A program made the position numbers and the translations under genes. Of a stretch of 64,000 nt of DNA, positions 16,026-60,257 are shown one piece after another. This stretch comes from Mycolicibacterium cosmeticum (GTDB taxonomy: Bacteria; Actinomycetota; Actinomycetes; Mycobacteriales; Mycobacteriaceae). Location of the stretch: assembly GCF_000613185.1 (NCBI RefSeq), contig NZ_CCBB010000003.1, forward strand, positions 1,860,001-1,924,000, in the 5' to 3' direction. Each line of letters opens with the position of its first letter. Position 1 is the stretch's first letter. Below the pieces are notes generated by a model. It saw nothing but the letters and a program-made list of their open reading frames with translations. It was not told the DNA's origin and did no database searches.

Positions 16026-16048
16026 TTCCGCTGTCCTGATGAGCGGAA
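16026..16048. promoter_or_regulatory. Inverted repeat TTCCGCT-N9-AGCGGAA (kstD/kshA intergenic)
   Basis: Perfect 7-bp arms, 37 bp upstream of kstD and 79 bp upstream of kshA. The half-site is the one repeated upstream of other operons of this island, so it is a likely operator of a shared regulator. Confidence 0.6.
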
Positions 16049-16126
16049 CGCGACCCTGTCACGGTGGCCGGACCGCAGTTCAATCAAAGGACAGCCCGAC
16101 ATCATCGATCGAAGGACGCACCGCAG

Positions 16127-17272
16127 ATGACCACGCATTCCGATGCCGGCGATATCCGACTGATCGAGGCCGGATCAGTCCCCACCAGGTTCGCCAGAGG
16201 ATGGCACTGCCTCGGATTGATCCGCGACTTCGGTGACGGACAACCACACCAGGTCAACGCATTCGGGCAGAAGCTGGTGGTCTTCCGGGGGCAGGACGGC
16301 GCCATCAACGTCCTCGACGGGTACTGCCGGCACATGGGCGGCGACTTGTCACAAGGGACCGTGAAAGGCAACGAGATCGCATGCCCGTTCCACGATTGGC
16401 GGTGGGGCGGGGACGGCCGGTGCAAGTTGGTGCCCTACAGCAAGCGCACCCCGCGCCTGGCACGTACCGCTGCGTGGCCGACCTTGGAGCAGGACGGCAT
16501 GCTCTTCGTCTGGAACGACCCCGAACGCAACCCCCCGCCTCCCGATGTCACCATCCCGCGGATCGAGGGTGCGACCAGCGATTCGTGGACCGACTGGCAT
16601 TGGTACACGACGGTGGTGCACACCAACTGCCGCGAGATCATCGACAACGTGGTCGACATGGCCCACTTCTTCTACATTCACGGCTCGCTGCCAACGCATT
16701 TCAAGAACATCTTCGAGGGCACCGTCGCCACGCAGTACATGAAGAGTGCGGGTCGTCCGGACGTGGGCGACCCCGAGGGATCAGTCATCCTCGGCACCAC
16801 CTCGTTGGCCGCTTACCACGGCCCGTCCTTCATGATCGACGATCTCACCTACCACTACCAGGATTTCGACCAGCGCACCGTGCTGATCAACTGCCACTAT
16901 CCGATCGACGCGAATTCCTTTGTGCTGCAGTACGGCATCGTGGTGGAGAAGAATGCATCGATGCCCGACGAGATGGCCACCCAGACCGCCGTCGCGCTGG
17001 GTGATTTCGTCAAGATGGGGTTCGAACAGGATGTTGAGATCTGGCGTAACAAGACCCGCATCGACAATCCGCTGCTGGTGGAGGAGGACGGCCCGGTGTA
17101 CCAGCTGCGCCGCTGGTACGAGCAGTTCTACGTCGATATCGCCGACGTGACGCCCGACATGGTCGACCGCTTCGAATTCGAATTGGACACCACACGGCCG
17201 ACCGAGGCCTGGATGAGGGAAGTGGAAGCCAACCTGGCGGCGCGCAGCGTTGCTTCCGGGCCGGTGGGATGA
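16127..17272 (+). CDS. kshA: 3-Ketosteroid-9alpha-monooxygenase oxygenase KshA
   Basis: A 381-residue Rieske oxygenase. The Rieske [2Fe-2S] ligands are C67, H69, C86 and H89 (CxH-x16-CxxH). The mononuclear iron site is visible as N174-x2-D177-x2-H180-x4-H185. This is the KshA layout, which hydroxylates C9 of 4-androstene-3,17-dione or its 1,2-dehydro form and so triggers ring B opening. Electrons would come from KshB, encoded at 41739. The ATG at 16127 has GAAGGA 10 nt upstream. It overlaps the following small CxxC gene by 4 bp. Confidence 0.92.
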   Translation: MTTHSDAGDIRLIEAGSVPTRFARGWHCLGLIRDFGDGQPHQVNAFGQKLVVFRGQDGAINVLDGYCRHMGGDLSQGTVKGNEIACPFHDWRWGGDGRCKLVPYSKRTPRLARTAAWPTLEQDGMLFVWNDPERNPPPPDVTIPRIEGATSDSWTDWHWYTTVVHTNCREIIDNVVDMAHFFYIHGSLPTHFKNIFEGTVATQYMKSAGRPDVGDPEGSVILGTTSLAAYHGPSFMIDDLTYHYQDFDQRTVLINCHYPIDANSFVLQYGIVVEKNASMPDEMATQTAVALGDFVKMGFEQDVEIWRNKTRIDNPLLVEEDGPVYQLRRWYEQFYVDIADVTPDMVDRFEFELDTTRPTEAWMREVEANLAARSVASGPVG

Positions 17273-17547
17273 CCGTCCGCATCGACAACCGACTCGATGA
17301 CATCCCGATGGTGCCGGTGAGCTGCCGGCGCTGCGGGGCCGAGGTGCAGGTACGCAAGAGCAGCTGGAGCCAGACCAGCGTCCAATGGACGGCTCGGGCC
17401 TTGGCCCGGTGCCAAGAGCGTTGCCGGGCAGAGCAATTGACCGGCCATCCCGGTAACCATCTGTTCCTCGCATGTTCGGCGCTGAATGCGTCGATCGTCG
17501 ATGCCGTGCGCACGGGCACGCTGCCAGTGGTCGACCATGGCCTCTGA
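17269..17547 (+). CDS. Small cysteine-containing protein cotranscribed with kshA
   Basis: A 92-residue protein with a CRRC pair (C19, C22) and three further cysteines (in RCQERC and LACSA). The segment AEVQVRKSSWSQTSVQW is highly characteristic; similar small proteins in actinobacterial steroid clusters are sometimes labelled ferredoxin. The cysteine spacing does not match plant-type or bacterial-type ferredoxins, so a zinc ribbon or atypical Fe-S site is equally possible. The 4-bp overlap with kshA implies a linked role, perhaps in electron transfer or cofactor assembly. Confidence 0.65.
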   Translation: MTVRIDNRLDDIPMVPVSCRRCGAEVQVRKSSWSQTSVQWTARALARCQERCRAEQLTGHPGNHLFLACSALNASIVDAVRTGTLPVVDHGL

Positions 17548-17569
17548 TGCCGCCGCAGTGCGATGAGAA

Positions 17570-18187
17570 TTACCCGGTCGGCAGTGGCAAAGGCGTGAGC
17601 GGCGCCACGATCATGCTCATTGCGGCGCGCAGTGCCGAGCGCAGATTCGTGAAGTCGCCGTGTTCAACCCAGTGGAGATAGGCGTGCCGGCAGGCTTGGA
17701 TGACGAACTGCGCCGGTAGCTCCCGGATGAAGGGGTCGGCGCCGAGGTCGTACCGCTTCGCCAGGAAATCGGTGATGGGGCCGACCAGGGCTTGACCCCA
17801 ATCCAGCCATCTCAGCCGGTACTGCGGATCGTTGATGACCAAGGCCATGAACGTGCGATCCATCTCGACCCGCCCGCGCCGTGGCACTTCGGTACTGAAT
17901 GCCTCGACGAGGATGTCGACGGCATCGGCATCTTCCTCGGCATCGGCGAGGAGCTGCTCGCTGAGCGAGCCGAACGCATTGAACAACGGTAGTACGACAT
18001 CTTCTTTCACCGGGAAGTGGCGGTGGAAGGTGCGCGGTGCGATACCCACGGCTGCGCAGATCCGATCCACGGTTGCCGACGTGGACCCGTCCGCCAGGAA
18101 GATGTCCCGCGCCGCGATGGCGATCTCCAGCCGAAGTTCTTCCGCTCGACGGACCATCAGCTTCGCCGGCTTCGCTGGCGCATTCAT
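17570..18187 (-). CDS. TetR-family transcriptional regulator
   Basis: A 205-residue repressor with an N-terminal HTH (about residues 12-60: LRLEIAIAARDIFLADGSTSATVDRICAAVGI and PRTFHRHFPVKED). The C-terminal ligand domain is not KstR-like; ligand unknown. The ATG at 18187 is preceded by GAGGAG at 6-7 nt spacing; the upstream GTG 18208 lacks one. It is divergent from the gene at 18427 across 239 bp containing several AGCGGAA-type half-sites, and convergent with the small CxxC protein gene. Confidence 0.85.
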   Translation of the reverse strand: MNAPAKPAKLMVRRAEELRLEIAIAARDIFLADGSTSATVDRICAAVGIAPRTFHRHFPVKEDVVLPLFNAFGSLSEQLLADAEEDADAVDILVEAFSTEVPRRGRVEMDRTFMALVINDPQYRLRWLDWGQALVGPITDFLAKRYDLGADPFIRELPAQFVIQACRHAYLHWVEHGDFTNLRSALRAAMSMIVAPLTPLPLPTG

Positions 18188-18261
18188 GTTGCGGCTCCTC
18201 GGTTTCACGGCAATTCATGATCCTAACGATCGAGCAACCATTCCTCGTGTCTGTCGCATGG

Positions 18262-18288
18262 TTCCGCTCCCGGTCAGCGGAATTCCGC
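18262..18288. promoter_or_regulatory. Cluster of TTCCGCT/AGCGGAA half-sites including CCGGTCAGCGGAA
   Basis: TTCCGCT (18262-18268), a 7-nt spacer, AGCGGAA (18276-18282) and then an overlapping TTCCGCC give three half-sites. The 13-mer CCGGTCAGCGGAA at 18270-18282 recurs exactly at 23728, 41706 and (inverted) 48122. It lies 75 bp upstream of the TetR gene and 145 bp upstream of the divergent gene. Confidence 0.65.
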
Positions 18289-18426
18289 CCAGTTACACGC
18301 CTCGGAGGGCACTATCTTCATCCATGTCACATTCTGCCACTCAGACGTGATCTGACAGCGGACTTGCAAAGTTCACTCAGCCCTTTCCGTCCATACCTGG
18401 CCATCGCCGCCAGAAAGGAGAAACCT

Positions 18427-19338
18427 GTGAACGTCGATAACGGGGAACTCAACTACGACGACTACACCCATGACTTCATGGGCAAGGTCGGCAACATCCA
18501 GGACTTCTCCCGTGATTTCTTGGTCGGCCTGGCCCGCGTGTTCGAGGATGTCCTGAATTTCATGCCCTATGCGCACGTCAAGATCTACTCGGAGAAAGTC
18601 GGAATCAACACGGCGATGGACGTGGCAGCCGAGGTGTCGAGAGCAGGCATGCGCCAGGTGCTTCCGATGGGGCGTTATCTGGCCCCGCCGGGGTGGGATT
18701 GGAAGAACGCCCAATATCAGGCCATTCCCTTCGACGTTCAGACCGAGGACTTGACCAAGCCGGCGTTGATCCGGCTGATCAAGACGTACTGGGACCAGTA
18801 CCTCAAGGGCCACAACTACTTCATCGACCAATGGACGAAGCTCATCCCGGAGGACGAAGTGTGGCTCGGTCTACCCGACATGTATCAGCTGATCATCGAC
18901 TATCAGTATCCGAAGCTGGCCAAGGTCCTCAAGATCGAGCCGGTACATGTGGTCGACTTCCTGAAGCTGGCAGTCCTGAGCATCGACGGCACGTTGGGAT
19001 ACGGCGGTGAGTACATCGTGTACAACCCCGACCACGTGGTCTTGAACATGCGCCGCTGTGAGGTTCTGCAGAAGTACACCGATGAAGGCCTGTACCCGCC
19101 GGCCAGGGCGTGGATGAATTGCACTTTCGAGCAACGCATCTCGGCTCCCTTCTTCCCGGGTTGCAAGCTGGCCATCAACCTGCCGCCCAAGGATTTCAAA
19201 TTCGCCCAAGGTGAACCGTTCTGCGTGTGGACGTACACGAGAGGAGAGGAGAACCACGCCGCCGCTGCGGCCGCCCCCGATCCTCGTGCCACGGCGATGG
19301 AGCGGATACCGCTGATGGATGTCACGGTAACGAACTAG
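18427..19338 (+). CDS. Unknown protein of the steroid island (303 residues)
   Basis: A 303-residue cytoplasmic protein. No signal peptide is seen. The N-terminal half is helical and the C-terminal half carries conserved-looking cysteines in MRRCEVLQ, WMNCTFE, FFPGCKLAI and GEPFCVW. Such a Cys-rich C-terminal region recalls the loosely defined V4R/ATC-hydrolase-like group, but this assignment is weak. The GTG at 18427 has an excellent Shine-Dalgarno (AAAGGAG, 6 nt upstream), which shows that it is well translated. It is divergent from a TetR regulator and monocistronic. Not recognised further. Confidence 0.75.
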   Translation: MNVDNGELNYDDYTHDFMGKVGNIQDFSRDFLVGLARVFEDVLNFMPYAHVKIYSEKVGINTAMDVAAEVSRAGMRQVLPMGRYLAPPGWDWKNAQYQAIPFDVQTEDLTKPALIRLIKTYWDQYLKGHNYFIDQWTKLIPEDEVWLGLPDMYQLIIDYQYPKLAKVLKIEPVHVVDFLKLAVLSIDGTLGYGGEYIVYNPDHVVLNMRRCEVLQKYTDEGLYPPARAWMNCTFEQRISAPFFPGCKLAINLPPKDFKFAQGEPFCVWTYTRGEENHAAAAAAPDPRATAMERIPLMDVTVTN

Positions 19339-19413
19339 CGTGCACTGTCGGCAAGGTGATGCCCATCGAGCGCCGCGGCTCGATGGGCATCGTCCACCAG
19401 TATGCCGCCGCGT

Positions 19414-20196: not shown

Positions 20197-20216
20197 GGGG
20201 GAGTGCCTTTCGGTGC

Positions 20217-21293: not shown

Positions 21294-22320
21294 CGTGTTC
21301 TCCTTCGGTGGTGAGGTCCTCGATTGTGGACAGCTCGGCGGTTGTCAGCGTGGCGGGCGTCCGGTGATCGGGACACGCGTTCGACAGCTGGGTATGGGCG
21401 AGCTTTGCGGCCAGGAGCGCACCGGTTTCGGCCATCGCGAGACGACCTCGTGCGGTGGCATCCGAGCGCATCAAAAATCCGTGATACACACCGGGATAGC
21501 GAGTGACGGTGGTCTGCACGCCGGCGTCGCGCAAGCGGGTGGCATAACGTTCGCCCCAATCCCGGATGGGGTCGCATTCACCGGTGACGATGATGGCCGA
21601 GGGCAGACCACTCACCTCGGTGGTGTAGGCGGGTACCTGGTATGGCGAATGCGGAGTCCCCGCAACACGATCGACGATTTCGTGCATATAGGCGATATCG
21701 TCGAGGCTCAGTAGGGGAGCATCGGGCATCGCCGTGATGGACGGTGCGCCCATGTCGCGGTCCAATCCCGGGTAGAGCAGCACCTGCGCGGCCAGCGGCG
21801 GCCCGCCGTGGTCACGGGCAGCCAAGGCAACCGCCGCGGCCAGGGAACCCCCTGCGCTGTCGCCCACCACCGCCAGCCGACCGGCGTCGACGTCGAGGTC
21901 GTCTGCCTGCGCCGAGACCCATTCGGTGGCGGCGTAGGCATCGTCGAATTGGGCGGGCGGCGGAGCCTCGGGTGCTAACCGGTACTCCACGGCGGCGACC
22001 ACGGCCCCGCTGGCCCGCGCCAGTTCTCGGGCCAGCGGCTCGAAGGAGTGGTTGGATCCCATGACCAGGCCGCCGCCGTGGAAATAGACCAGAACCGGTT
22101 GGCGGGAAGCTGTCTTGGGCCGGTACAGCCGGATCGGAATCGGGCCGGCGGGTCCCGGTGCGGTCACATCCTCGATGGCCGCCATGGTCGGCATGTCGGG
22201 GTGGGGGGCGGATTCGATACCGGCCCGTACGGCGGCGAGTCCCCGGGTGCGCATTGGCGCCAGCGCTCCCATGGCGGCGACGCGTGCGGCGGCGTCCGGA
22301 TCCAGTTGTGGCGAACGCAT
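21280..22320 (-). CDS. HSL-type alpha/beta hydrolase (esterase)
   Basis: A 346-residue carboxylester hydrolase of the hormone-sensitive-lipase group. Visible are the oxyanion motif HGGG (FHGGGLVMGS), the nucleophile GDSAGG, a DPIRD-type acid site and a catalytic histidine in GVYHGF. The C-terminus extends about 40 residues past the core. Mycobacterial Lip proteins of this type hydrolyse small lipophilic esters, so it could act on lactones or esters made by the island's Baeyer-Villiger enzymes. It lies 1 bp from the SDR gene upstream. Confidence 0.9.
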   Translation of the reverse strand: MRSPQLDPDAAARVAAMGALAPMRTRGLAAVRAGIESAPHPDMPTMAAIEDVTAPGPAGPIPIRLYRPKTASRQPVLVYFHGGGLVMGSNHSFEPLARELARASGAVVAAVEYRLAPEAPPPAQFDDAYAATEWVSAQADDLDVDAGRLAVVGDSAGGSLAAAVALAARDHGGPPLAAQVLLYPGLDRDMGAPSITAMPDAPLLSLDDIAYMHEIVDRVAGTPHSPYQVPAYTTEVSGLPSAIIVTGECDPIRDWGERYATRLRDAGVQTTVTRYPGVYHGFLMRSDATARGRLAMAETGALLAAKLAHTQLSNACPDHRTPATLTTAELSTIEDLTTEGEHDADR

Positions 22321-22321
22321 T

Positions 22322-23185
22322 TCAGTTCTGGGCCGGGTCGAAGCGCCGTTCGGTGCGCAGTCGTGGCGCTTCCTGACTGGTCAGCACACGTGCCCGCTCC
22401 GACATGGCGGACCCGACGTAATCGGGCTGGGTGAGCAGGTAGAACTTGCCTTCAGCGGCCTGCTCGAACACCACTTCTGCCGCCGACAGCGGGTCCATGG
22501 CCTCGGCCTTGATGTCGAGCATCGCGCTGCGCTGCGCCTCGGCAGCTCCGGTGTCACCGGACTGCACGCCGCCGGCGGACTCGAAGATGTTGGACACCAC
22601 AGCGCCCGGCAATACCGCCTGGATGTGCAGGTGATGATCGTGGCCGGCGGCCTGCACTTCCAGGTGCAGGCATTCGGTCAGGGCCAGCACCGCGTGCTTG
22701 CTCACGATGTAGGGTGCCTGCAGCGGAACGACGGCGACGCCGCCGATCGAGGACAGGTTCCACACCCATGCCGGCGATTCGGTGGCCATCATGTGCGGCA
22801 GGAAGGCGCGGATGCCGTGGAAGACCCCGCTGACATTGATATCCATGACGCGTTGCCAGTTGTCGACCGGTGTATCCCAGAGGTAGCCGAACTGTTCGAC
22901 GCCGGCGTTGTTCACCAGCAGGCGTACCGCTCCGACATCCTGGTACACCCGGTCCGCCATGGTCTGCACGGCGACAGCGTCCCGAACATCGCAGACGATG
23001 TCGTGTGCGGAACCGCCTGCAGCGCACAGCTCTTCTCGCAGGGCGGCAATCGCAGCGGCGTCAACGTCGACGAGCACCACCGTCATCCCCAGCCGCGCGG
23101 CGTGGCGCGCCAAGCCGGCACCGATCCCGGCGCCTGCCCCGGTGATGACCGCTACACCGCCGCTGAAGGTTTCGCGTGCGTTCAC
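22322..23185 (-). CDS. SDR-family dehydrogenase
   Basis: A 287-residue short-chain dehydrogenase: ITGAGAGIGAGLA at the N-terminus, VDVD after beta2 (NAD preference), NNAG in beta4, and an active site of S in NLSSIGG plus YIVSK. The C-terminal 40 residues are an extension rich in Arg and Glu. Substrate unknown. It overlaps the NTF2-like gene (ATGA at 23182-23185), so the two proteins are translationally coupled. Confidence 0.87.
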   Translation of the reverse strand: MNARETFSGGVAVITGAGAGIGAGLARHAARLGMTVVLVDVDAAAIAALREELCAAGGSAHDIVCDVRDAVAVQTMADRVYQDVGAVRLLVNNAGVEQFGYLWDTPVDNWQRVMDINVSGVFHGIRAFLPHMMATESPAWVWNLSSIGGVAVVPLQAPYIVSKHAVLALTECLHLEVQAAGHDHHLHIQAVLPGAVVSNIFESAGGVQSGDTGAAEAQRSAMLDIKAEAMDPLSAAEVVFEQAAEGKFYLLTQPDYVGSAMSERARVLTSQEAPRLRTERRFDPAQN

Positions 23186-23682
23186 GCCGGTTGAGAGGTG
23201 GCCGAGGTCTTGGCGGCGTGTTCGGCGAACGGGATCGAGTCCTCCGCGTCGAGCACGACGGTCATCGAGGTGAACACCAAGCCGTCACCGCGGCGCCGGA
23301 TGCCGACGTCGACCACTCCGCTGGAGACGTCGAAGGGAATGTTGTTGGTGACCTGGTTGACGTAGAGGTAGAACCGGGCGGTGGTGACGTCACCGTCTGG
23401 ACCGGGCTGGCTACCGGTGCGGAAGATGTTGGTGGCGTGGTGGCGCAGCGGGTACGGATTCTCGTTGCGGTGCGCGGTGAGCCAGGCCAGTGTCTCGGCC
23501 CCACCGGTCAGGTCGGCGGCAAGCAGATGCTCGAAGGGGCACGCCCCGGAATCCGAGCGGCTCAGATAGGTCATCTGGTCATCGATGCGGGCGGCGAGCT
23601 CGTCGAAATGTCCCTGGTCGTAGTGGAACCAGAAGCCGGCGATGAATTCCTGGACCTCGGGGAGGGTCAACTCGTTGCTCAT
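23182..23682 (-). CDS. SnoaL/NTF2-like protein
   Basis: A 166-residue single-domain protein with the alpha+beta cone of the NTF2-like superfamily: N-terminal helices (VQEFIAGFWFHYDQGHFDELAARI), DQMTYLS, and a curved sheet (TTARFYLYVNQV, LVFTSMTVVLD). Homologues in steroid clusters act as isomerases, dehydratases or binding proteins, for example Ksi-like and the hydratase halves. No catalytic pair could be assigned. It is first in a minus-strand operon. The conserved 13-mer at 23728-23740 lies 46 bp upstream of its ATG. Confidence 0.78.
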   Translation of the reverse strand: MSNELTLPEVQEFIAGFWFHYDQGHFDELAARIDDQMTYLSRSDSGACPFEHLLAADLTGGAETLAWLTAHRNENPYPLRHHATNIFRTGSQPGPDGDVTTARFYLYVNQVTNNIPFDVSSGVVDVGIRRRGDGLVFTSMTVVLDAEDSIPFAEHAAKTSATSQPA

Positions 23683-23727
23683 ATGCAGGAGTCAACCCCG
23701 ACGCGGCCGCGCTGACACCGGCGGTGA

Positions 23728-23756
23728 CCGGTCAGCGGAACAGCGTATGGTCCGCT
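23728..23756. promoter_or_regulatory. CCGGTCAGCGGAA with inverted half-site TCCGCT
   Basis: An exact copy of the 13-mer at 23728-23740, followed by TCCGCT at 23751-23756, giving AGCGGA-N11-TCCGCT. It lies upstream of the NTF2-like operon. The last bases touch the end of the acyl-CoA dehydrogenase gene. Confidence 0.62.
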
Positions 23757-28183: not shown

Positions 28184-28210
28184 GACGATGTCCTTTTCGG
28201 TGCGAGGCGC

Positions 28211-29317: not shown

Positions 29318-29328
29318 GTGTTTTCCCT

Positions 29329-37890: not shown

Positions 37891-37913
37891 GAGAGATCTC
37901 CCATCAGGCTCGG

Positions 37914-37936
37914 ATATGACTATTAGTAATATGACT
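37914..37936. promoter_or_regulatory. Direct repeat ATATGACT x2 upstream of iclR
   Basis: ATATGACT occurs at 37914-37921 and 37929-37936 (15-bp period). The overlapping palindrome ACTA-T-TAGT lies between them. The stretch is conspicuously AT-rich for this genome. It starts 24 bp upstream of the iclR ATG, which fits an autoregulatory site. Confidence 0.5.
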
Positions 37937-38068: not shown

Positions 38069-39535
38069 TTACCCGATTGCGGCGGCGCGACCGGCGCGCC
38101 GTCCGTAGAAACTGCCATCGCCGAGGGACACGCCGCTGGCGTAGCCCCACGCCGCCAGGCCTGCGGCACTCCGCCCGGCGGCGAACAAACCGGGGATGGG
38201 CTCGCCGCTGACGTGCAGCACCTCGGCATCAAGGGAGGTGTGCAGACCACCGAGGGTGAAGCCACCGGTGCTGTCGCGGAGGTCGATGGCACCCACCGGG
38301 GATTTGATCGGGTTGAGCCACTGCGCTTTCTTGTGCAAAAGCGGATCCTCGCCGCGCGACGCGCCCTCGTTGTATGCATCGACGGTGGCCCGTAACGAGT
38401 TCGGCGGTAGCCCGATTTCGGCCTCCAGATCGGCGACGGTGTCGGCGACCCACGTCGGCGGCCGAAGCATCAACCGCGGTGTCAGGGACGCTATCGCCTC
38501 CTCCTGGGCGTCGCCGTCGATGATCAGGTACGCGGTGTTGTTCTGGTGATACAGCGTCAGTTGCCCGACCCTGCCCGGATAGGTGTCCTCGGCGACATAG
38601 CGTTGACCGCGTTCGTTCACCAGGATTCCGCGCACCAACTGCTGGGGATCGATGAACAGCGCCACCTCGGTGGCATCCATGTGCGCCAGGTCAGCCCCGA
38701 GTGCCTGCGCCATCCGGATGCCCTGCCCGTCGTGCTGCTCGACCGAGGCGGCCGGTCGCCCGGCGATGCGGGGCGTGTACCGGGTGACCATGCCGGCGTT
38801 GTAGGCGAAACTGCCGGTGGCCAGGATGACGCCGCGGCGGGCGCGGATATCGACGACGGTGCCGTAGCGCCGGGCCCGGATACCCGCGACGCGGCCGTCG
38901 GATTCCACGATCAGCGACTGCACACGCACGTCGTACAGCGACCGTGTTCCGGCCGCCGTCGCGGTGTCGACGAGGCCTTTCATCAGCATGAAACCGGCGC
39001 TGGACTCGCCTTGCTTCTTGTTCTGCATTTGGGGTATGTGCCCGCGCGGCGCGGGCTCGGCAATCGTGTTGAACGGGTAGGCATTTTCGCCGCCGCTGTA
39101 CATCAGCCCCTGGTCGCCTATCGGCTCCCAACCGGGTTCTCCGAAGAATTCGGCTTTGAAGGGCACCCCGCAGCCCACCAGCCAGTCGAAGTGCGCGACA
39201 CTGCCTGCGCAGTAGTCGGCGATACGGTGCTCGTCGGCGCCTGGCCCCATGGCGGCGTTGAGGAAGGCGGCCATGTTCTCCGGTGAATCCTCGAAGCCGC
39301 ATGCCTTTTGGAGGGCTGTTCCGCCGCCGAGGTAGATGAAACCACCCGCCATGGCGGCCGCACCGCCCCATGCGCTGGTGCGTTCGAGTACCAGCACGTC
39401 CGCCCCGGCGCGTGCAGCCTCCACTGCGGCGGCGGCACCGGCGACACCGTAACCGGCGATCACCACGTCGGCCTCGTCGGCCCACTCGGTCACCGCGCTG
39501 ATCGGGATGGGGTGGACGTCGTCGCCGGGGGTCAT
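38069..39535 (-). CDS. FAD-dependent 3-ketosteroid dehydrogenase-like protein
   Basis: A 488-residue flavoprotein of the fumarate-reductase/KstD family. Motifs are GYGVAGAAAAVEAARAGADVLVLERTSAWGG at the N-terminus, an RRGVILATGSFAYN strand and the C-terminal FAD clamp GLFAAGRSAAGLAAWGYASG. It lacks the YPGAG motif of the other KstD here, so it may act on a different ring position (for example a delta4 or seco-intermediate). The ATG at 39535 overlaps the hsaC-like stop (ATGA). It is the third gene of the hsaA-hsaC-kstD-like operon. Confidence 0.83.
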   Translation of the reverse strand: MTPGDDVHPIPISAVTEWADEADVVIAGYGVAGAAAAVEAARAGADVLVLERTSAWGGAAAMAGGFIYLGGGTALQKACGFEDSPENMAAFLNAAMGPGADEHRIADYCAGSVAHFDWLVGCGVPFKAEFFGEPGWEPIGDQGLMYSGGENAYPFNTIAEPAPRGHIPQMQNKKQGESSAGFMLMKGLVDTATAAGTRSLYDVRVQSLIVESDGRVAGIRARRYGTVVDIRARRGVILATGSFAYNAGMVTRYTPRIAGRPAASVEQHDGQGIRMAQALGADLAHMDATEVALFIDPQQLVRGILVNERGQRYVAEDTYPGRVGQLTLYHQNNTAYLIIDGDAQEEAIASLTPRLMLRPPTWVADTVADLEAEIGLPPNSLRATVDAYNEGASRGEDPLLHKKAQWLNPIKSPVGAIDLRDSTGGFTLGGLHTSLDAEVLHVSGEPIPGLFAAGRSAAGLAAWGYASGVSLGDGSFYGRRAGRAAAIG

Positions 39536-40440
39536 GGGCGCATCGCGGCGGGAAGGTCCGACACCCATTGGTGGCCCCAATAACTGTCGGCGGTGATTTC
39601 CTCAGCGGTGTAGGAGGATTCGTCGACGCGCATCCCTTCGGTGCCGAACTCGATGTCCCAGTCGCCGGGACTGCGGACGTAGAACGACACCATCTTGTCG
39701 TTGGTGTGGCGGCCCAGCGTCGAGGACAGTTGGAAGCCTTCGGTGTTGACTCGGTCCAGGGCCTGCCCGACGGCATCGAGGGTGTCGACCTCGACCATCA
39801 GATGGATCAGCCCGGGATCACGCAACGTCTGAGCGGGGCAGATCGCCAAGCTGTGGTGGCGCTGATTGACGCCCATGAACCGAACCCGTACCGGGCCGAA
39901 CTCCGGCGGAACCGGAACGCGGAATGCGCCGCGGGACTTGAAGCCCAAGACCTCGGTGTAGAACTCGAACAAGCCGTTGACGTCGAGTGCGGGCAGCACC
40001 ACATGCCCCAGACCCTGGTCGCCGGTGACGAACCGCGCCCCGTGCGGCGTGATGACGGGGGAATGGTCCAGCACCGCACCGTGGAACACCTCCACGGCGG
40101 TGCCGGCCGGATCCTCGAAGGCGATGACCTCCTCGACGCGCCGGGTGTCGGCCTCTTCCAGCGAGAGCTGCTTGAACGGCACCCCGGCGGCGTCGAGGGC
40201 GGCCTTGACCCGCTCCAGTTCGGCGTGGTCACGTACCTCCCACCCGACGGTCATGATCTTGTCGACCTCGCCGGGCACGATGATGATGCGGGCGGCGCGT
40301 TCGTCCATGCGCAGATACAGCGCGTCGTCGCGCGGTCCCTGCCCTTGGGCGAATCCGAGCACGTTGAAGGCGAAATGGCGCCAGCGCTCGATATCGGCGG
40401 TCGAAGCGGTGACATAGCCGAGGCTCTTGATCAGTCCCAT
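39532..40440 (-). CDS. hsaC: HsaC-like extradiol ring-cleavage dioxygenase
   Basis: A 302-residue two-domain type I extradiol dioxygenase. Fe(II) ligands are H146 (GHVVLP), H213 (HLMVEVD) and E264 (DIEFG), with H196 in RHHS nearby. It closely resembles HsaC of M. tuberculosis, which opens the aromatised A ring of 3,4-DHSA by meta-cleavage. It lies 13 bp after the hsaA-like gene and overlaps the flavoprotein gene by 4 bp. A second, core hsaC is expected elsewhere in such a genome, so this may be a paralogue with altered specificity. Confidence 0.9.
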   Translation of the reverse strand: MGLIKSLGYVTASTADIERWRHFAFNVLGFAQGQGPRDDALYLRMDERAARIIIVPGEVDKIMTVGWEVRDHAELERVKAALDAAGVPFKQLSLEEADTRRVEEVIAFEDPAGTAVEVFHGAVLDHSPVITPHGARFVTGDQGLGHVVLPALDVNGLFEFYTEVLGFKSRGAFRVPVPPEFGPVRVRFMGVNQRHHSLAICPAQTLRDPGLIHLMVEVDTLDAVGQALDRVNTEGFQLSSTLGRHTNDKMVSFYVRSPGDWDIEFGTEGMRVDESSYTAEEITADSYWGHQWVSDLPAAMRP

Positions 40441-40453
40441 GTGAGCTGTCCTC

Positions 40454-41638
40454 TCAGATCATCGCCCGCAGCGGGCCCTGCGGGTCGACACCCAGCGAAC
40501 TGAGCGCCGAGGCGTGGTACACCGTGCCGGGAACGTGGATGGCGTGGGCCTGGCCGACGTGTACATCGCGCCAATACCGTTGCAGGGGTTTGTCCATCCG
40601 GGCTGCGTTGCCACCGCAGCGCGCGAAGATCTCGTCCACGGCCGAGACCGCGCGCCAGACCGCGCGCACCTGGGTGCGCCGACCGGCCGCGCGGTCCTCG
40701 AAAGACACCTCCTTGCCGGCGTCCACCATGTCGAAGATGCGGTCGGCATTGGCCAGTAGTTCCTGGCGGCCTGCGTTGATGTCGGCGGCGGCCTCACCGA
40801 TCGCGTACATCACGTAGGGATCGTCCTTGATGGCCACACCGCTGGAATTCACCCGTTCACGCTGGTAATCGAGGGCGGCCGCCAGCGCGCCCTCTGCGAT
40901 GCCGATGGTTGCCGAGCTGATGCCGAGCGGGAACATCGTCGACCACGGCATCAGGTAGAGCGTCTCGGTCATTCCGGCCTCACGCTGAGCGGTGCCGTCC
41001 ATCACCTTCATCGCGTCCATGGTGCGGTAGGACGGTACGAAGGCATCCTTGACGATGACGTCCTTGGAACCGGTGCCGCGCAATCCGACGACGTTCCAGG
41101 AGTCCTCGACGATCTCGTAGTCCTTGCGCGGCAGGATCATGTGCAGCATCTGGGGTGGCATCAGGGGCTTGCCGTCGGCGTCACCGATCATCGCGCCCAA
41201 AAAAATCCAGTCGCAGTGGTCGGTGCCCGAGCTGAACTGCCAGCGGCCGTTGAAGAGGTAGCCGCCTTCGACCGGCACAGCCACACCTTGAGGGGCATAG
41301 GGGGAGGCCACCCAGGTGTCCACATCGTCGGCCCAGATCTCGGCGGCCACCCGCGGGTCGGCATAGGCCAGTTGGTAGGGGTGGACACCCACCACGCCGT
41401 TGATCCAGCCGGCCGCGGGATCGAGGGCGGCCGTGGCCATCACCGTCTCGGCGAATTCTCGCGGATGAACCTGCAGACCGCCGTGGGTGCTCGGTTGCAG
41501 AAGGCGGATGTTGCCCGCCGATTTCATGAGCTTGACCGTGTCGTCGGTGAGTTTGCCGATCGTCTCGGCTTGAGGTCCTTGGCTGCGCAGCTGGTCTGCC
41601 ATGTCGCGCACCCGGTCGATTACCCGCTCGGTCATCAT
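40454..41638 (-). CDS. hsaA: HsaA-like flavin-dependent hydroxylase
   Basis: A 394-residue acyl-CoA-dehydrogenase-fold monooxygenase, the same length as M. tuberculosis HsaA, which ortho-hydroxylates 3-HSA using reduced flavin from HsaB. Conserved pieces are LLQPSTHGGLQ, GVHPYQLAYAD, SYAP-like SPYAPQG, RWQFSSGTDHCDW, VVGLRGTGSKDVIV and RYWRDVHVGQAH. The first codon is ATG 41638 with another ATG next to it. Its operon promoter carries the island's 13-mer at 41706-41718. Confidence 0.9.
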   Translation of the reverse strand: MMTERVIDRVRDMADQLRSQGPQAETIGKLTDDTVKLMKSAGNIRLLQPSTHGGLQVHPREFAETVMATAALDPAAGWINGVVGVHPYQLAYADPRVAAEIWADDVDTWVASPYAPQGVAVPVEGGYLFNGRWQFSSGTDHCDWIFLGAMIGDADGKPLMPPQMLHMILPRKDYEIVEDSWNVVGLRGTGSKDVIVKDAFVPSYRTMDAMKVMDGTAQREAGMTETLYLMPWSTMFPLGISSATIGIAEGALAAALDYQRERVNSSGVAIKDDPYVMYAIGEAAADINAGRQELLANADRIFDMVDAGKEVSFEDRAAGRRTQVRAVWRAVSAVDEIFARCGGNAARMDKPLQRYWRDVHVGQAHAIHVPGTVYHASALSSLGVDPQGPLRAMI

Positions 41639-41705: not shown

Positions 41706-41729
41706 CCGGTCAGCGGAAATCTGTTCCGC
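41706..41729. promoter_or_regulatory. CCGGTCAGCGGAA with inverted TTCCGC upstream of the hsaA operon
   Basis: The exact 13-mer at 41706-41718 is followed by TTCCGC at 41724-41729, giving GCGGAA-N5-TTCCGC. It starts 68 bp upstream of the hsaA-like ATG and is the only intergenic sequence between that gene and kshB. Confidence 0.65.
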
Positions 41730-42830: not shown

Positions 42831-42949
42831 GTTCGGTGAGTCTGACCGTGATGGCGGCGCGGGCCAACCCGGCCCGTCCGATAGTCGGGATACCCATTCA
42901 ATCCGTCCGGTGACCGGGAAGAGCGGCGGGCACCGTCGGGGCGGACGCC

Positions 42950-47101: not shown

Positions 47102-47160
47102 CCAAAACCGACGTTTGGCCGGTTGGTTCTCGGCTTCTTCGACCCAAACGTGAGTTTGGG
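47102..47160. terminator. Bidirectional terminator zone with CCCAAAC/GTTTGGG hairpin
   Basis: Between convergent genes lie a perfect 7-bp hairpin (CCCAAAC-GTGA-GTTTGGG, 47143-47160) and a smaller one (CCAAA...TTTGG, 47102-47118). ACGTTTGG (47111-47118) can also pair with CCAAACGT (47144-47151), so alternative structures are possible. It probably ends transcription from both sides. Confidence 0.65.
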
Positions 47161-47165
47161 CGGAC

Positions 47166-48050: not shown

Positions 48051-48121
48051 CCACCCTCCCGGGAGTTGGATCACTGTCCAGCTCAGCTTCGCCCCCGAAG
48101 CGCAGCAGGTGCAACGCGACA

Positions 48122-48134
48122 TTCCGCTGACCGG
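48122..48134 (-). promoter_or_regulatory. CCGGTCAGCGGAA (minus strand) between hsaD and the mce operon
   Basis: A fourth exact copy of the 13-mer, here on the minus strand, 72 bp upstream of the hsaD-like gene and 151 bp upstream of yrbEA. It links the import operon to the catabolic genes. Confidence 0.62.
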
Positions 48135-48284
48135 TGACTGCACGTGCGCTCGCCAGAGGCGTGACTTCGGTTCCCGATGGGCGGGACACTGCCTGCCACG
48201 TCGGGACCGGGGCTGTCATGGTTCCCGGTCGAGAGTGTCCCGGATCACAGGATCCGGTCGCCGATCAGGGAACGGAGGGCCGCG

Positions 48285-49912: not shown

Positions 49913-49921
49913 CAGGCTGTG

Positions 49922-55875: not shown

Positions 55876-57461
55876 TGCTCACTCGATTGGTCCGCGCCCA
55901 GCTGGTCATCTTCACGATCGCCTCGATCATCGGCGTGACGGTGATGGTGGTGGCATACCTGCAAGCTCCCACCTTGCTGGGCATCGGCCGGATGACCGTG
56001 ACACTGCAGCTACCGGGCACCGGTGGTCTATACCGGTTCTCCAACGTCACCTACCGCGGCGTGCAGATCGGGAAGGTCACCGATGTACGCCCCACCCGCG
56101 ACGGTGCCGAAGCCACCCTCTCACTGAATACGACGCCGAGCATCCCGGCCGACGTGCATGCCGCGGTGCTCAGCGTGTCCGCGGTCGGTGAACAGTACGT
56201 CGACCTGCAACCACGCAACGATGCGGGCCCCTTCCTGCGGGACGGCGCGACCATCCCTGCCACGCAGGCGTCGATTCCGCAAGCGGTCGGCCCCATGCTG
56301 GATCAGGTCAGCGCCCTGATCGGCAGCATCCCCGAGGACAAGATCCGGCCGCTGCTCGACGAGACGTTCAGGGGATTCAACGGTTCCGGCGCGGACGTCG
56401 GTTCTCTGCTCGATTCCTCGGCGCGCCTGATTGCCGACGCCAACGCCACAGCCGATCAATCCCGCACCCTCATCGACGACAGCGCCCCACTGCTCGACGG
56501 GCAAGCCGAATCGATCGATGCGATTCGGACCTGGGCACACAGCCTGGCCGGGATCACCCAGCAGCTGACTGACGACGACCCGGCGGTCCGGACGTTGCTA
56601 CGGGATGGACCGGATGCCGCTGACGAAGCCTCGCGGCTGTTCAACCAAGTCAAACCCACCCTGCCGGTCCTGCTGGCCAATCTGACCAGCATCGGCCAGG
56701 TCGCCGTCACCTACCATCCCTCCCTGGAGCAGCTGCTGGTGCTCCTGCCGCCCGTTGTCGCCTCGACCCAGGCCTACGGCGCGCCGAAGAACAACCCCAT
56801 CGGAATGTCGTTGGGCGACTTCACCCTCAACATCGGGGACCCGCCGGCCTGCACGGTCGGTTTCCTCCCACCGTCGGCGTGGCGCTCGCCCGAAGACACC
56901 AGCGACATCGACACGCCGGACGGTCTGTACTGCAAGCTGCCGCAGGACTCACCGATCGGAGTCCGCGGTGCGCGCAACTATCCGTGCATGGGTAAGCCGG
57001 GCAAGCGGGCACCGACCGTCGAAATCTGCGACAGCGACAAGCCCTACGAACCGTTGGCGATGCGCCAGCATGCTCTCGGCCCGTACCCGATCGATCCGAA
57101 CCTGCTCGCGCAGGGCATACCTCCGGATGGCCGCATCGACCGTGACCCTGCGATCTACGGGCCGCTGGAGGGCACCCCGCCGCCGCCCGCCGGCAACGGT
57201 GAGGCCGGGCCACCGCCACCGCCGACCGAGCCGGCACCCGGCCCTGAACCGGCACCCGTCGGCCCCGAGCCGGCGCCGGCTGGTCTACCCGCGGCACCAA
57301 GTGCATTCCAGCCCAACGGATCTGGTGGCCCGTCGGTGGCGATCGCCACCTACGACCCGCGTACCGGTCAATACGCCACGCCCGATGGCGCGGTGTTCCG
57401 GCAAACCGACTTGGCGCCGCGCGCCGGTGAACGGACCTGGAAGGATCTCTTTCCCAGCTGA
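55875..57461 (+). CDS. mceF: Mce-family protein MceF with long Pro-rich tail
   Basis: A 528-residue Mce protein, the last of the six. It has an N-terminal anchor (about 8-28), an MCE domain (TGGLYRFSNVTYRGVQIGKVTDV, about 38-115) and a helical region, then a globular part with two cysteine pairs. A roughly 90-residue tail is dense in Pro, Ala and Glu. The start is GTG, overlapping the mceE stop. A minus-strand secreted-protein gene begins 19 bp after its stop. Confidence 0.92.
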   Translation: MLTRLVRAQLVIFTIASIIGVTVMVVAYLQAPTLLGIGRMTVTLQLPGTGGLYRFSNVTYRGVQIGKVTDVRPTRDGAEATLSLNTTPSIPADVHAAVLSVSAVGEQYVDLQPRNDAGPFLRDGATIPATQASIPQAVGPMLDQVSALIGSIPEDKIRPLLDETFRGFNGSGADVGSLLDSSARLIADANATADQSRTLIDDSAPLLDGQAESIDAIRTWAHSLAGITQQLTDDDPAVRTLLRDGPDAADEASRLFNQVKPTLPVLLANLTSIGQVAVTYHPSLEQLLVLLPPVVASTQAYGAPKNNPIGMSLGDFTLNIGDPPACTVGFLPPSAWRSPEDTSDIDTPDGLYCKLPQDSPIGVRGARNYPCMGKPGKRAPTVEICDSDKPYEPLAMRQHALGPYPIDPNLLAQGIPPDGRIDRDPAIYGPLEGTPPPPAGNGEAGPPPPPTEPAPGPEPAPVGPEPAPAGLPAAPSAFQPNGSGGPSVAIATYDPRTGQYATPDGAVFRQTDLAPRAGERTWKDLFPS

Positions 57462-57479
57462 CCGGCTCGGTAGCCGGCT

Positions 57480-57992
57480 TCAGCCGGTCTTGATCAGCTT
57501 GAACGGCATGGTGATGAACAGGACCTTGCTGCTGCCGCAGTTGCCGCTGACGCCGGTCGTCGAGTCCTCGCCCATCAAAGTGGTGGACGTCGGGTCCATT
57601 CCGCTGCCATCGTCGGTGGCCGGATAGAAGCGGAACACCTGCAATCCCGGACCGGCGCCGCCGTCGGGGCACGGCTGCCACCGGTCAACCATCTTCTTGA
57701 CGAACCAGACCCCACTTCTCTGGTAGATCGGTGCGTTCCAGCCGAAATCACTGCTCACCGATCCGGTGCATTCGCCGGGATAGCTACACGTCGTGGTGAT
57801 CGACCACGTGCTGCGAATGCTCGCCTCGTCGTGATAGATGTCGTTGGTCTTCGCCCACTCGCCGTTCGACGTGGCGATGTACGTGCCGTTGAGACCCCAC
57901 TGCGGGGATGCCCCGGCGACCGACGGATCGACCATGCCCAGTGCCACGGCAGACACCATGCCCGCAACAAATGAGGTCCTGGACAACCGCAT
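57480..57992 (-). CDS. Secreted protein of unknown function
   Basis: A 170-residue exported protein with a signal peptide (MRLSRTSF then hydrophobic, cleavage near AGA at about residue 27). The mature part is Ser/Thr/Gly-rich with four cysteines (TTCSYPGECTG, QPCPDGG, GNCGS), suggesting two disulfides, and beta-strand character (GTYIATSNGEWAK, WSITTTC). Similar small secreted proteins are common near mce loci. ATG 57992 has GGAGTGG upstream; earlier starts would bury the signal. It lies opposite to the mce operon. Confidence 0.75.
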   Translation of the reverse strand: MRLSRTSFVAGMVSAVALGMVDPSVAGASPQWGLNGTYIATSNGEWAKTNDIYHDEASIRSTWSITTTCSYPGECTGSVSSDFGWNAPIYQRSGVWFVKKMVDRWQPCPDGGAGPGLQVFRFYPATDDGSGMDPTSTTLMGEDSTTGVSGNCGSSKVLFITMPFKLIKTG

Positions 57993-58118
57993 AACCACTC
58001 CTTCATGGTCGGCACGCGCCAGCGGCGCAGCAGGTTTCACCTTCTCTCCTCCCGCCCGCGATGACAGCGGCCCTCCCGCCCAGCGGACGATGCGCTGGCG
58101 AAACGCGCCGGCGGTGGC

Positions 58119-58511
58119 ATGGTGGCGGCCATGCGGTCTTCTGCGGCAGCAGCGGCGGTCACGGCCTTGCTCCTGGGTGCTCTCACCCCGGCAACAGCGA
58201 ACGCCGATCCGGACGAGTGCAACGACCCCTCCTGCGTTCCCGGCATCACCGGTGGTGTCGTCCTGGGCGCACCGTGTGCCGACACGGCGCGCTATGTGTT
58301 CGGCACGACGTCCTGGGGCCGGTTGGTGTTCTGTGGGTCGCCGCGCCGGTACGAGCCGCGCTACTTCCGGTCACCGCCCTTGAAGGGCGTCCGCGCGGAG
58401 AACTCGCCATGCGAAGGGGCGCTGAACACGGTCGCACAAGCCCCAGATGGGCTCTTCCTGACCTGCATTGCCGTCGAGGGCTCCACCCGGTGGGTCCGAG
58501 GTGATACCTGA
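58119..58511 (+). CDS. Secreted cysteine-containing protein
   Basis: A 130-residue exported protein with a signal peptide (Ala-rich core, cleavage near ANA). The mature chain has six cysteines (DECNDPSCVPG, GAPCAD, LVFCGS, NSPCEG, LTCIAVE), so it is disulfide-rich. ATG 58131 is an alternative start giving a shorter signal peptide. It forms a pair with the following gene (1 bp gap), which is also secreted. Function unknown. Confidence 0.72.
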   Translation: MVAAMRSSAAAAAVTALLLGALTPATANADPDECNDPSCVPGITGGVVLGAPCADTARYVFGTTSWGRLVFCGSPRRYEPRYFRSPPLKGVRAENSPCEGALNTVAQAPDGLFLTCIAVEGSTRWVRGDT

Positions 58512-58512
58512 G

Positions 58513-58935
58513 ATGCGCGCAATCCGCCTCCGCGCTGCCGGATGTGTCGTCGTCGTCCTGTGCGCCGGTTCAGGCACGCCCGCTCAAGCCGATGACGAGG
58601 TGCCGCTGCACCGGGTGACCTATACCGTGACGGCCGAACTGCCCGGTCATGCCGCCGTCTACTACCGCGACACCGACCCGCCGACGTGGGCTGACTACAG
58701 CCACAATCCCTATCAGTTCAGTCCCCGAGATGACATCAACCTGGCACCGGGAACACCGTGGATCCGCGACGCAATGCTGGCCGACCCGGCCCAGTGGGCG
58801 ATGGTCACGGTCACCACCGCGGGACAAGTGCCCGACGACCGCCAGATTCTGCGCTGCCAACTGAGCGTCGACGGCATCCAAGTCAGCCAAGCCGAAGGGG
58901 CCCGCGGGGCATTGTGTTCCGTACGCCATTGGTGA
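58513..58935 (+). CDS. Secreted MmpS-domain-like protein
   Basis: A 140-residue exported protein with a signal peptide of about 27 residues. The mature part resembles the periplasmic domain of MmpS proteins: a TYTVTAELPGHAAVYYRD strand, a WAMVTVTT segment, and a C-terminal LRCQLSVDGIQVSQAEGARGALCSV in which the two cysteines flank the strand pair. There is no membrane anchor or adjacent MmpL, so it is a free or wall-associated variant. It is 2 bp after the previous gene. Confidence 0.72.
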   Translation: MRAIRLRAAGCVVVVLCAGSGTPAQADDEVPLHRVTYTVTAELPGHAAVYYRDTDPPTWADYSHNPYQFSPRDDINLAPGTPWIRDAMLADPAQWAMVTVTTAGQVPDDRQILRCQLSVDGIQVSQAEGARGALCSVRHW

Positions 58936-59057
58936 GGCATCACGGACCGGCCGGAAGGTGACCGCTGGCCGGGACGGCGGAAACCGAGGGCGATCGGCCT
59001 GCCTTAGCGTGTGGCGACTGTCACACGTCGAGCCCACAACCGGCACCTGGAGGAATC

Positions 59058-59681
59058 ATGCCCGTTCTCAGCAGCGCAGCCCGGACGGATGAAACCGAAG
59101 ACACAGCCTCCGAGGCGGATTGCGGGGAGAGTTCGGACGAGGATGCGACCGACCCGGCCTTGGACCCAACCCAACCGGCCGAACCTCGCCGACGACGGCC
59201 GAAGCTCAGCACGGTGCTCGCCTACATCGCCGTGTCGGCCGGCATCGCGATGCTCGCCGTCAGTGGATACCTGCTCCGGGAACACCGGGCATACGAGCAG
59301 GAGCAACAACGTAGGGACGAATTCGCCAGGGCCGCTTCCCAAGCGGTGATCACGTTGATGTCGATCGACAGTGCCAAGGTGGCCGACAATGTCCGTCAGA
59401 TCATCGACAACTCGGCCGGGCAGTTCCGCGACGATTTCCAAGCGGAGGCGGACGACTTCATCAAGACGGCGCAAGCCTCGAAGGCGGCGACCAAAGCGAC
59501 CGCGCAGGTCGCCGCGGTCGAAACGATGACCGCGAACTCGGCGACGGTCCTCGTGACGGCCGCGACCACCGTCAGCGATGACGCCGGCGCCAACCAACAA
59601 CCGCGGAGCTGGCGGCTGAGCGTCGACATGGAGCGAGACGGAGAACAGATCAAGTTGGCGAAGGTGGAGTTCATCCCATGA
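59058..59681 (+). CDS. Mce-associated membrane protein (Mas)
   Basis: A 207-residue single-pass protein: an acidic, Glu/Asp-rich cytoplasmic N-terminus (about residues 1-50), one transmembrane helix (about 52-74) and an extracytoplasmic alpha+beta domain (about 80-207) with the repeated AAxxAV pattern of Mce-associated proteins. These stabilise or regulate Mce complexes. ATG 59058 has GGAGG 4 nt upstream. It overlaps the second mas gene (ATGA). Confidence 0.87.
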   Translation: MPVLSSAARTDETEDTASEADCGESSDEDATDPALDPTQPAEPRRRRPKLSTVLAYIAVSAGIAMLAVSGYLLREHRAYEQEQQRRDEFARAASQAVITLMSIDSAKVADNVRQIIDNSAGQFRDDFQAEADDFIKTAQASKAATKATAQVAAVETMTANSATVLVTAATTVSDDAGANQQPRSWRLSVDMERDGEQIKLAKVEFIP

Positions 59682-60214
59682 GCAGCGACGGTGCCGCGAC
59701 GGAACAGACCATCGGAGTGCGGGGACGTCGGGTGCGACGGTGGTGGCGCTCGGTGACTGTGACCGCGTTCTTGATAGGTGCCGCCGTGGTAGCAGCCGTT
59801 ACCTATCTTGGTCCCACCCGTAGTGATCAGGAGACCACGGCGGCGGCCGCGCAGGCCCTCGACGCGGCGAAGCAAGGTGCGGTGGCGTTGCTGTCGTATA
59901 CGCCCACCAGTTTGGGCGACGATCTCGCCAAAGCTCGAACCCACCTAACCGGAGAATTCCTGACCTACTACAGCCAGTTCGCCGACCAGATACTCATTCC
60001 GGCGGCCAAACAGAAGGATGTCCACGCCACTGCCAGTGTCGTTCGGGCCGCTGTCATCGATGCACACGCGGACACCGCCGATGTGTTGATCTTCGTCAAT
60101 CAGAACACCACCAGCAAGGACAATCCCGTATCCGTGCCGGCGGCCAGCAGCGTGAAAGTTGGGCTCACCAAAGTCGATGGTGCATGGCGCATCTCGTCTT
60201 TCGATCCGGTCTGA
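59678..60214 (+). CDS. Mce-associated membrane protein (Mas)
   Basis: A 178-residue companion: a basic cytoplasmic N-terminus (GRRVRRWWRS), a transmembrane helix (about 26-47) and an exported NTF2-like domain with AAKQGAVALLSYTPTSLGDDL, a typical Mas sequence, and a final WRISSFDPV strand. Overlapping start (ATGA) and shared architecture with the previous gene support co-translation. It completes the mce operon. Confidence 0.88.
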   Translation: MSSDGAATEQTIGVRGRRVRRWWRSVTVTAFLIGAAVVAAVTYLGPTRSDQETTAAAAQALDAAKQGAVALLSYTPTSLGDDLAKARTHLTGEFLTYYSQFADQILIPAAKQKDVHATASVVRAAVIDAHADTADVLIFVNQNTTSKDNPVSVPAASSVKVGLTKVDGAWRISSFDPV

Positions 60215-60245
60215 CCGGTCCGGATGTGTGAGCCGCCCGACTCCC

Positions 60246-60257
60246 GTTGAGCGGAAA
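60246..60257 (+). promoter_or_regulatory. AGCGGAA half-site upstream of the enoyl-CoA hydratase
   Basis: CCGTTGAGCGGAA-type sequence with AGCGGAA at 60251-60257, 74 bp upstream of the hydratase start. It is a single half-site with no inverted partner, so its membership in the island regulon is uncertain. Confidence 0.4.

Follow-up and report, generated by a model that had tools for sequence, protein, structure and literature searches.

Which protein recognizes a short DNA element that recurs before steroid-catabolism genes in Mycolicibacterium cosmeticum, and how does it act there? The question is raised by a gene island on contig NZ_CCBB010000003.1, within a stretch of 64,000 nt that was analysed as a whole and is called the window here; the genome itself comprises 6.46 Mb in 5 contigs. 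An earlier note, made from the letters alone, had described an exact 13-mer and its half-sites as marks of six island promoters. We find that the 13-mer belongs to a longer element, named M1, which is an imperfect palindrome of 17 bp with the core TTCCRCTSAYCGGGA, and that M1 probably serves as operator for the IclR-family protein encoded in the island itself, which would act there as an activator. The observation in the earlier note is confirmed and sharpened, and its interpretation is partly supported; the fixed spacing between M1 and a -10 box goes beyond it and is informative on how the site works. Coordinates are collected in Table 1.

The four exact copies of the 13-mer CCGGTCAGCGGAA that had been reported, at 18270-18282, 23728-23740, 41706-41718 and 48122-48134, are all present in the window, where 100 shuffles give an expectation of 0.00. 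Their always being intergenic holds if hsaD and the DUF gene use internal starts; the mechanically called open reading frames (ORFs) overlap two of them. Searches of the whole genome and of orthologous islands had been proposed. In the genome, the 13-mer has 5 copies (reversed control pattern, 0), the fifth of them off the island, within a kdpB-like ORF (C1:1754054). In the orthologous islands, the upstream regions of hsaA and of the gene for an NTF2-like protein were compared for motif discovery; the core is conserved upstream of both, and its reverse complement includes the 13-mer. M1 was then found at orthologous promoters in 20 islands and in 80 named Mycobacterium and Mycolicibacterium contigs.

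The M1 matrix has 17 columns and was built from 39 sites, the best consensus matches before hsaA and the NTF2-like gene only. All 39 were retained, including three weak ones (one in G006, the others before the additional hsaA gene of G004 and of G053), and a score of at least 13 was taken as a site. Since both promoters are in the training set, their counts are circular in part; the FMO43, kstD/kshA, hsaD/yrbE, TetR/DUF and p20 promoters were held out. All six promoters named in the earlier note fit M1, with scores of 16.2 to 25.1 (two of them, hsaA and the NTF2-like gene, from the training set), but six is too few, as FMO43, p20 and, with a variant, padR have the site too. Some M1 sites face genes on both sides. 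The single half-site placed at 60251-60257 is actually at 60250-60256, one base off, and within a full 17-mer. The inverted repeat TTCCGCT-N9-AGCGGAA at 16026-16048 is exact, but relatives with the site keep the 17-mer at 16033-16049 instead, and the two other matches to the repeat in the window have 3 mismatches each. Neither the half-site nor the N9 repeat was kept as a functional unit, since every site fits the 17-mer and it is this form that relatives conserve.

The set of sites is regulon-like and spans ring catabolism and the hsaD/mce intergenic region, in line with the proposal of a regulon joining import and catabolism. Within the window, TTCCGCT occurs 16 times (6.2 +- 2.4 expected). 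The exact string TTCCRCTSANCGGNM is found 5 times in the genome, 4 of them in the island, and one-mismatch motif matches number 104 genome-wide against 32 for a control pattern. A wider regulon beyond the island may exist. Seven off-island near matches were inspected: the fifth 13-mer copy, one exact core match and, by eye, five one-mismatch sites. Apart from the kdpB-like ORF, they lie within an AMP-ligase-like ORF (C3:1387077), an ORF carrying PPE and Tox-REase-5 matches (L226), a 501-aa ORF (L229) and a molybdopterin-enzyme ORF (L230), at the start of a CoA-transferase ORF (L228), and 3' of a Fapy-glycosylase gene (L227). The L226 ORF (827-2191; about 1364327-1365691 of C3 in the same genome), with its PPE-type match and terminal Tox-REase-5, resembles a polymorphic-toxin arrangement.

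Conservation can be judged from the held-out promoters. The 20 islands (40 stretches) were retrieved as the surroundings of genes for close relatives of the IclR protein in the window; they overlap with the 80 named contigs, some being the same contigs by equal length, and all are related, so that rows are not independent. The first FMO43 copy has a site in 19 of the 20 islands, the exception being G087. Sites reach 13 on the kstD side in 6 of 9 relatives (3 missed) and on the kshA side in 6 of 10 (4 missed), on the hsaD side in 10 of 18 (8 missed) and on the yrbE side in 3 of 3, before the DUF gene in 2 of 3 (1 missed), and before p20 in 6 of 14, with a seventh at 12.5. Among the named contigs, the counts are 69/72 for hsaA, 55/67 for FMO43 and 11/11 for the NTF2-like gene, whereas random 150-bp windows of the same contigs score at least 13 in 2.3 percent of cases. 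The padR variant, which was chosen by eye and whose pattern TCCCGGCCAGCGGT was written after inspection of padR loci, is present in 27 of 30 of them. For the enoyl-CoA hydratase gene, two homologs were seen in relatives, and no such site was found upstream of either. G004 and G053 carry, about 10 kb from the first, a second hsaA-hsaC-kstD2-type set with an FMO43 homolog (L041 and L043); the sites before the hsaA and FMO genes of these second sets score only 11.4, below 13.

The distance from the M1 end to a -10-like box is nearly constant, at 29 bp with a range of 26-30. It was measured from the end of the 17-mer to a -10-like hexamer. Across 92 ortholog site-gene pairs, 27 of 27 TANNNT hexamers are at 28-30 bp, 21 of them at 29; at FMO43 in 64 named loci the figure is 60 of 61, and for the padR variant it is 27 of 28 occurrences. 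Before the NTF2-like gene, all of the 16 islands compared have TTGACT or TTCACT 29 or 30 bp away from M1, whereas the distance from M1 to the start codon varies from 41 to 105 bp. Boxes of the TAGACC/TAGAYC type are found at 27 bp before hsaA. Between kstD and kshA, a single M1 has a -10 box at 29 bp on either side.

Since the orthologs are not independent, the spacing test was repeated on the sites of the window only. Averaged over 12 selected gene directions, the score at offset 29 is 2.93, compared with -3.99 (sd 1.33) for the 54 offsets; none of 20000 circular shifts reaches it, and 10 of the 12 directions are positive. Without selection, using all 15 sites of at least 13 in both directions, offset 29 is again the best of the 54 (-1.03 versus -4.02, sd 0.67), and none of 10000 circular shifts reaches its score. 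Six of the matches in the window lie outside Table 1. One, at 48171, has CATGGT at 29 bp. The other five are in coding DNA (5254, in a GNAT-type frame, 34007, 42630, 53610 and 53666); the first of them, at 16.1, is level with the lowest-scoring of the six sites described earlier. None of the five has a good -10 at 29 bp, and they were treated as chance. If a -10 box is assumed to start at -12, the fixed spacing means that M1 covers about -57 to -41. This is just upstream of the place of a -35 element, a position that fits an activator.

As for the protein, the earlier note had left the choice among two TetR proteins, a PadR and an IclR protein, and the evidence points to IclR. The protein is clearly of that family in Pfam (HTH_IclR 52 bits, cut-off 22; IclR_C 104.6 bits, cut-off 24). 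Its nearest NCBIfam model, PcaR/PcaU/PobR (TIGR02431), gives 127 bits against a cut-off of 284.75, far too low for membership of that subfamily by this test. The recognition region of its helix-turn-helix, LPRSSAHR, is identical across 19 close orthologs. M1 itself resembles the IclR group-1 consensus given in PMC8222616. In a comparison by eye with that consensus, TTYCRYW3RYGRAA, the left arm TTCCRCT fits and the right arm AYCGGGA is off at one or two positions; more symmetric forms, TCCCGSTSASCGGGA, are found in outgroups.

The outgroups bear on the choice between IclR and PadR. PadR homologs were surveyed at a threshold of E 1e-30 and are found in 50 of 148 genomes, 2 of them with only 41-43 percent identity. 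Four genomes (G087, G128, G132 and G135) have an IclR homolog of 43-64 percent identity and no PadR match at that threshold, and carry M1-like, more symmetric sites with the same -10 spacing; examples lie 89 bp upstream of hsaA (G128 and G135) and, in G132, 75-77 bp upstream of both hsaA and hsaD. Before a stricter count (scores of at least 16), 5 of 30 regions were set aside as controls: G043, G076, its extension and two G087 flanks. The remaining 25 regions with IclR homologs (487,511 bases) hold 16 symmetric M1-like sites, against about 1.5 expected under a Markov model of the window rather than of those genomes, and among the top-scoring matches listed, 7 of 7 TANNNT are at 28-30 bp. In the controls, G043 has 2 such sites and the others have 0. 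The hsaA site of G076, which has PadR and no close IclR, scores 9.4; this is weak evidence, as some IclR-bearing loci are equally low.

In the mechanism that we consider probable, an IclR dimer would bind M1 and recruit RNA polymerase, on both sides of the site at divergent genes such as kstD and kshA. The ring-cleavage genes and the hsaD/mce region would then be switched on together once IclR is present with its ligand, probably a steroid-derived compound. Several results weigh against this assignment. In close genomes (IclR at least 71 percent identical), a PadR match is present in 45 of 45, so co-occurrence cannot separate the two proteins there. G043 keeps its M1 sites (22.6 before the NTF2-like gene), and no close IclR was found in it. 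Only 10 of the 25 outgroup regions hold a site of at least 16, and the -10 spacing is absent from those of G170, G174 and G095. The hsaA site is poor in some genomes that do carry IclR (7.9 in L112, 6.5 in L121 and -0.9 in L172), and no M1 of at least 13 precedes iclR in any of 79 named loci. With regard to spacing, hsaA has no TANNNT at 28-30 bp in 69 named loci, and in the window no -10 stands at 29 bp in the hsaD or the TetR (17570) direction.

Some of these results suit a different assignment, with M1 as the operator of PadR, directly repressing every catabolic promoter, and IclR acting elsewhere, for example on a second palindrome, M2, described below. PadR is present wherever close IclR is, padR mutants of M. 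smegmatis reportedly show constitutive cluster expression, the promoter of padR carries the M1 variant, and G043 combines M1 sites with a padR frame (with one internal TGA) and no close iclR. Even so, we think this unlikely: a place upstream of the -35 region is unusual for a repressor, the four outgroup genomes named above have M1-like sites with the same spacing and no PadR match, and M1 resembles the IclR consensus. Quite unlikely, in turn, is that IclR binds M1 as a repressor or dual regulator. Many IclR proteins do behave in these ways (PMC8222616), but activation is a better match to the constant placement of M1 at about -57 to -41 and to its exact distance from the -10 box.

Very little weight is given to a regulator encoded elsewhere in the genome, or to one of the two TetR proteins. 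A TetR gene does adjoin the M1 site at 18267-18283, yet M1 tracks islands carrying IclR. This TetR (17570) was rejected as a common regulator, since a protein of more than 50 percent identity is seen in only 3 of 20 islands, and several islands that span kshA to p20 are without it. That the M1 repeats reflect chance or coding conservation is next to inconceivable; some matches do lie in coding DNA, and there are the one-mismatch places throughout the genome, but the expectation of 0.00 for the 13-mer, the conservation of M1 at a held-out promoter and the fixed -10 spacing already disfavour chance.

A second, putative operator concerns iclR itself. The predicted iclR promoter is followed by M2, a palindrome with the pattern CATATNNCTAWTAGNNATATG that occurs upstream of iclR within 2 mismatches in 19 of 19 PadR-bearing islands and within 4 mismatches in 79 of 79 named loci (73 within 2). 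By comparison, 2 Mb of Markov sequence gives 2 matches at 4 mismatches. In its own genome, M2 is found at one place with up to 3 mismatches, as is the reversed control pattern. No M2 with up to 4 mismatches was found in G087, which has IclR and no PadR match, or in the 30 outgroup regions. Overlapping copies every 15 bp are seen in G012, G073, G077 and G085. M2 lies just past a near-consensus promoter and over the predicted start, which is a position for a repressor. The inner bases of M2 are variable (TC/GA in 28 loci, GA/TC in 13); what stays constant is ATAT..CTA and not TTCC, an argument against IclR as the protein that binds M2. M2 may be a PadR operator: PadR mutants of M. smegmatis reportedly express the cluster constitutively, and for this reason PadR is a candidate for M2.

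These elements can be combined into a two-tier switch, a tentative scheme to which we give not quite an even chance. PadR on M2 would silence iclR; after release of PadR, IclR would be made and, acting from M1 sites near -49, would switch on around ten promoters, in part bidirectionally, among them that of padR. The less certain parts are that the near-consensus iclR promoter is shut by a repressor on M2, probably PadR, and that the M1 variant of padR would close a negative feedback loop through activation by IclR. If true, the switch would account for the silence of the pathway on ordinary steroids, and for the constitutive cluster expression reported after loss of padR, though PadR would have one or a few direct targets. 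Against the scheme, M2 was not found in G018 (PadR 49 and IclR 54 percent identical), and M2 could alternatively be a site of IclR autoregulation.

Known relatives of the regulator offer some guidance. PobR and PcaU, of aromatic-acid catabolism, are activators, and a PDB entry title likewise calls PobR an activator; together with PcaR they belong to the same family as the island protein. The PobR site TTGTCCGATSATCGGACAR has an odd-length layout with a central S, as does the M1 core (PMC8222616). The island protein differs in its predicted targets, which are steroid genes at about ten promoters, where members of the family usually control one or two operons (PMC8222616). GenR of Corynebacterium glutamicum, an actinobacterial IclR protein, has the site ATTCC-N7(5)-GGAAT compared with TTCC-N7-GGRA in M1 (PMC8222616); its half-sites and its pathway, gentisate, are other than those of the island protein.

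The KstR and KstR2 regulons are also cases of local control of steroid catabolism, but with TetR repressors and other motifs. M1 was said earlier to be unlike either, and this stands: the window has 0 strict matches to the KstR operator TNNAACNNGTTNNA and 0 to the KstR2 operator ANCAAGNNCTTGNT. For the TetR-type protein at 11629-12300 (- strand), the best curated model is KstR, at 115 bits against a cut-off of 280. A palindrome before steroid genes outside KstR/KstR2, Motif X, is described for Mycobacterium sp. VKM Ac-1817D with G155_05115 (Rv0767c type); it is assigned to a TetR protein and to P450, isomerase and dehydrogenase operons (PMC6593523).

With homologs of kstD, kshA, kshB, hsaA, hsaC, hsaD and padR occurring together, the island is similar to the C-19+ cluster of M. 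smegmatis, known here from descriptions. A second cluster of M. neoaurum ATCC 25795 has been called homologous to C-19+ (PMC5962712); the contig of this strain (L179) has the same gene order around iclR as the island, with M1 sites upstream of hsaA (score 21.7) and of the FMO gene (score 13.9), and it holds a perfect copy of M2. C-19+ is described as a silent, tightly regulated pathway that is not activated by phytosterol or C19 steroids and whose natural activation mechanisms are not established (PMC10672877). The M. smegmatis genes kshA2, kshB2, MSMEG_2869 and MSMEG_2867 lack a KstR operator, and their induction by cholesterol is about 1-fold (PMC5270728). Other data show MSMEG_2867 and MSMEG_2869 somewhat raised with cholesterol relative to glycerol, and MSMEG_2854-2861 (mce) cholesterol-induced, which speaks partly against a silent cluster (PMC4881515). 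In the search listings and paper passages covered here, neither an IclR regulon nor an IclR or PadR operator for a C-19+-type cluster was found. With an operator, a regulator gene and a promoter geometry now concrete, the question of C-19+ activation becomes testable, and M1 with a -10 box at 26-30 bp can serve as a rule for finding targets in other mycobacteria. Removal of the C-19+ kstD and ksh isoenzymes has been proposed to improve industrial steroid strains (PMC5962712), and the M1 promoter module could become a steroid sensor, if the IclR ligand is found.

Table 1. Genes and regulatory elements of the island, in window coordinates (M1 scores are matrix scores; distances run from the M1 end to the -10-like box)
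Feature	Position	Strand	Remarks
M1 variant ATCCCGGCCAGCGGTTC before padR	13541..13557		-10 TACCCT at 29 bp; below matrix threshold
padR, PadR-family regulator	13599..14264	+	Pfam PF03551
kstD	14286..15989	-	NCBIfam 3-ketosteroid-delta-1-dehydrogenase, above cut-off; Pfam FAD_binding_2 (KstD type)
M1 between kstD and kshA	16033..16049		score 16.2; TATCGT (kstD side) and TTCAAT (kshA side) at 29 bp
kshA, 3-ketosteroid 9alpha-hydroxylase oxygenase	16064..17272	+	Pfam KshA_C; start probably internal to ORF
TetR-family regulator, MftR-like	17570..18190	-	not conserved together with M1
M1 between TetR and DUF gene	18267..18283		score 20.1; -10 TATCTT at 29 bp, DUF side
M1 within upstream gene, before p20	21358..21374		score 13.9; CACAAT at 29 bp
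NTF2-like protein, first gene of - strand operon 23682-19414	23182..23682	-	weak SnoaL_4 match, below cut-off
M1 before NTF2-like operon	23725..23741		score 23.9 (training set); TTGACT at 29 bp
iclR, IclR-family regulator, 278 aa	37054..37890	-	Pfam HTH_IclR and IclR_C
M2 palindrome	37913..37933		CATATTACTAATAGTCATATC on - strand; overlaps predicted iclR start site
Predicted iclR promoter GTGACA-N18-TACAAA	37938..37967	-	read from sequence; consensus over 80 rows
hsaA, hsaC and KstD-type flavoprotein gene	38069..41638	-	Pfam and NCBIfam
M1 before hsaA	41703..41719		score 25.1 (training set); TAGATC at 27 bp
M1 before FMO-like gene (FMO43)	42904..42920		score 17.4; -10 TACCGT at 29 bp
M1 between hsaD and yrbE/mce	48121..48137		score 17.0; weak -10 TTCGGT at 28 bp, mce side
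M1 before enoyl-CoA hydratase gene	60241..60257		CTCCCGTTGAGCGGAAA, score 20.1; CATCCT at 29 bp
Possible further M1	61652..61668		score 14.8; CAGTGT at 29 bp

The gene assignments of the earlier note hold in Pfam, with matches for KshA, FAD_binding_2, TetR, SnoaL-like (weak), extradiol dioxygenase, HsaA-type, MlaE and enoyl-CoA hydratase (ECH) proteins. For the third gene of the hsaA-hsaC group, the nearest models are of an FAD-binding subfamily, and the name kstD comes from synteny.

Two minor observations concern sites of uncertain role. Between two divergent IclR-type genes, GTTCCGCTGAATGGACC and GTTCCGCTGAGTGGAAC are found in G174 and G170 (near 10379 of L237 and near 1774 of L244); these sites lack the 29-bp -10 spacing and perhaps serve autoregulation of another IclR pair. 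In the window, the candidate M1 at 61652-61668 precedes a 144-aa, secreted-looking ORF on the - strand (ATG at 61609) without a Pfam match.

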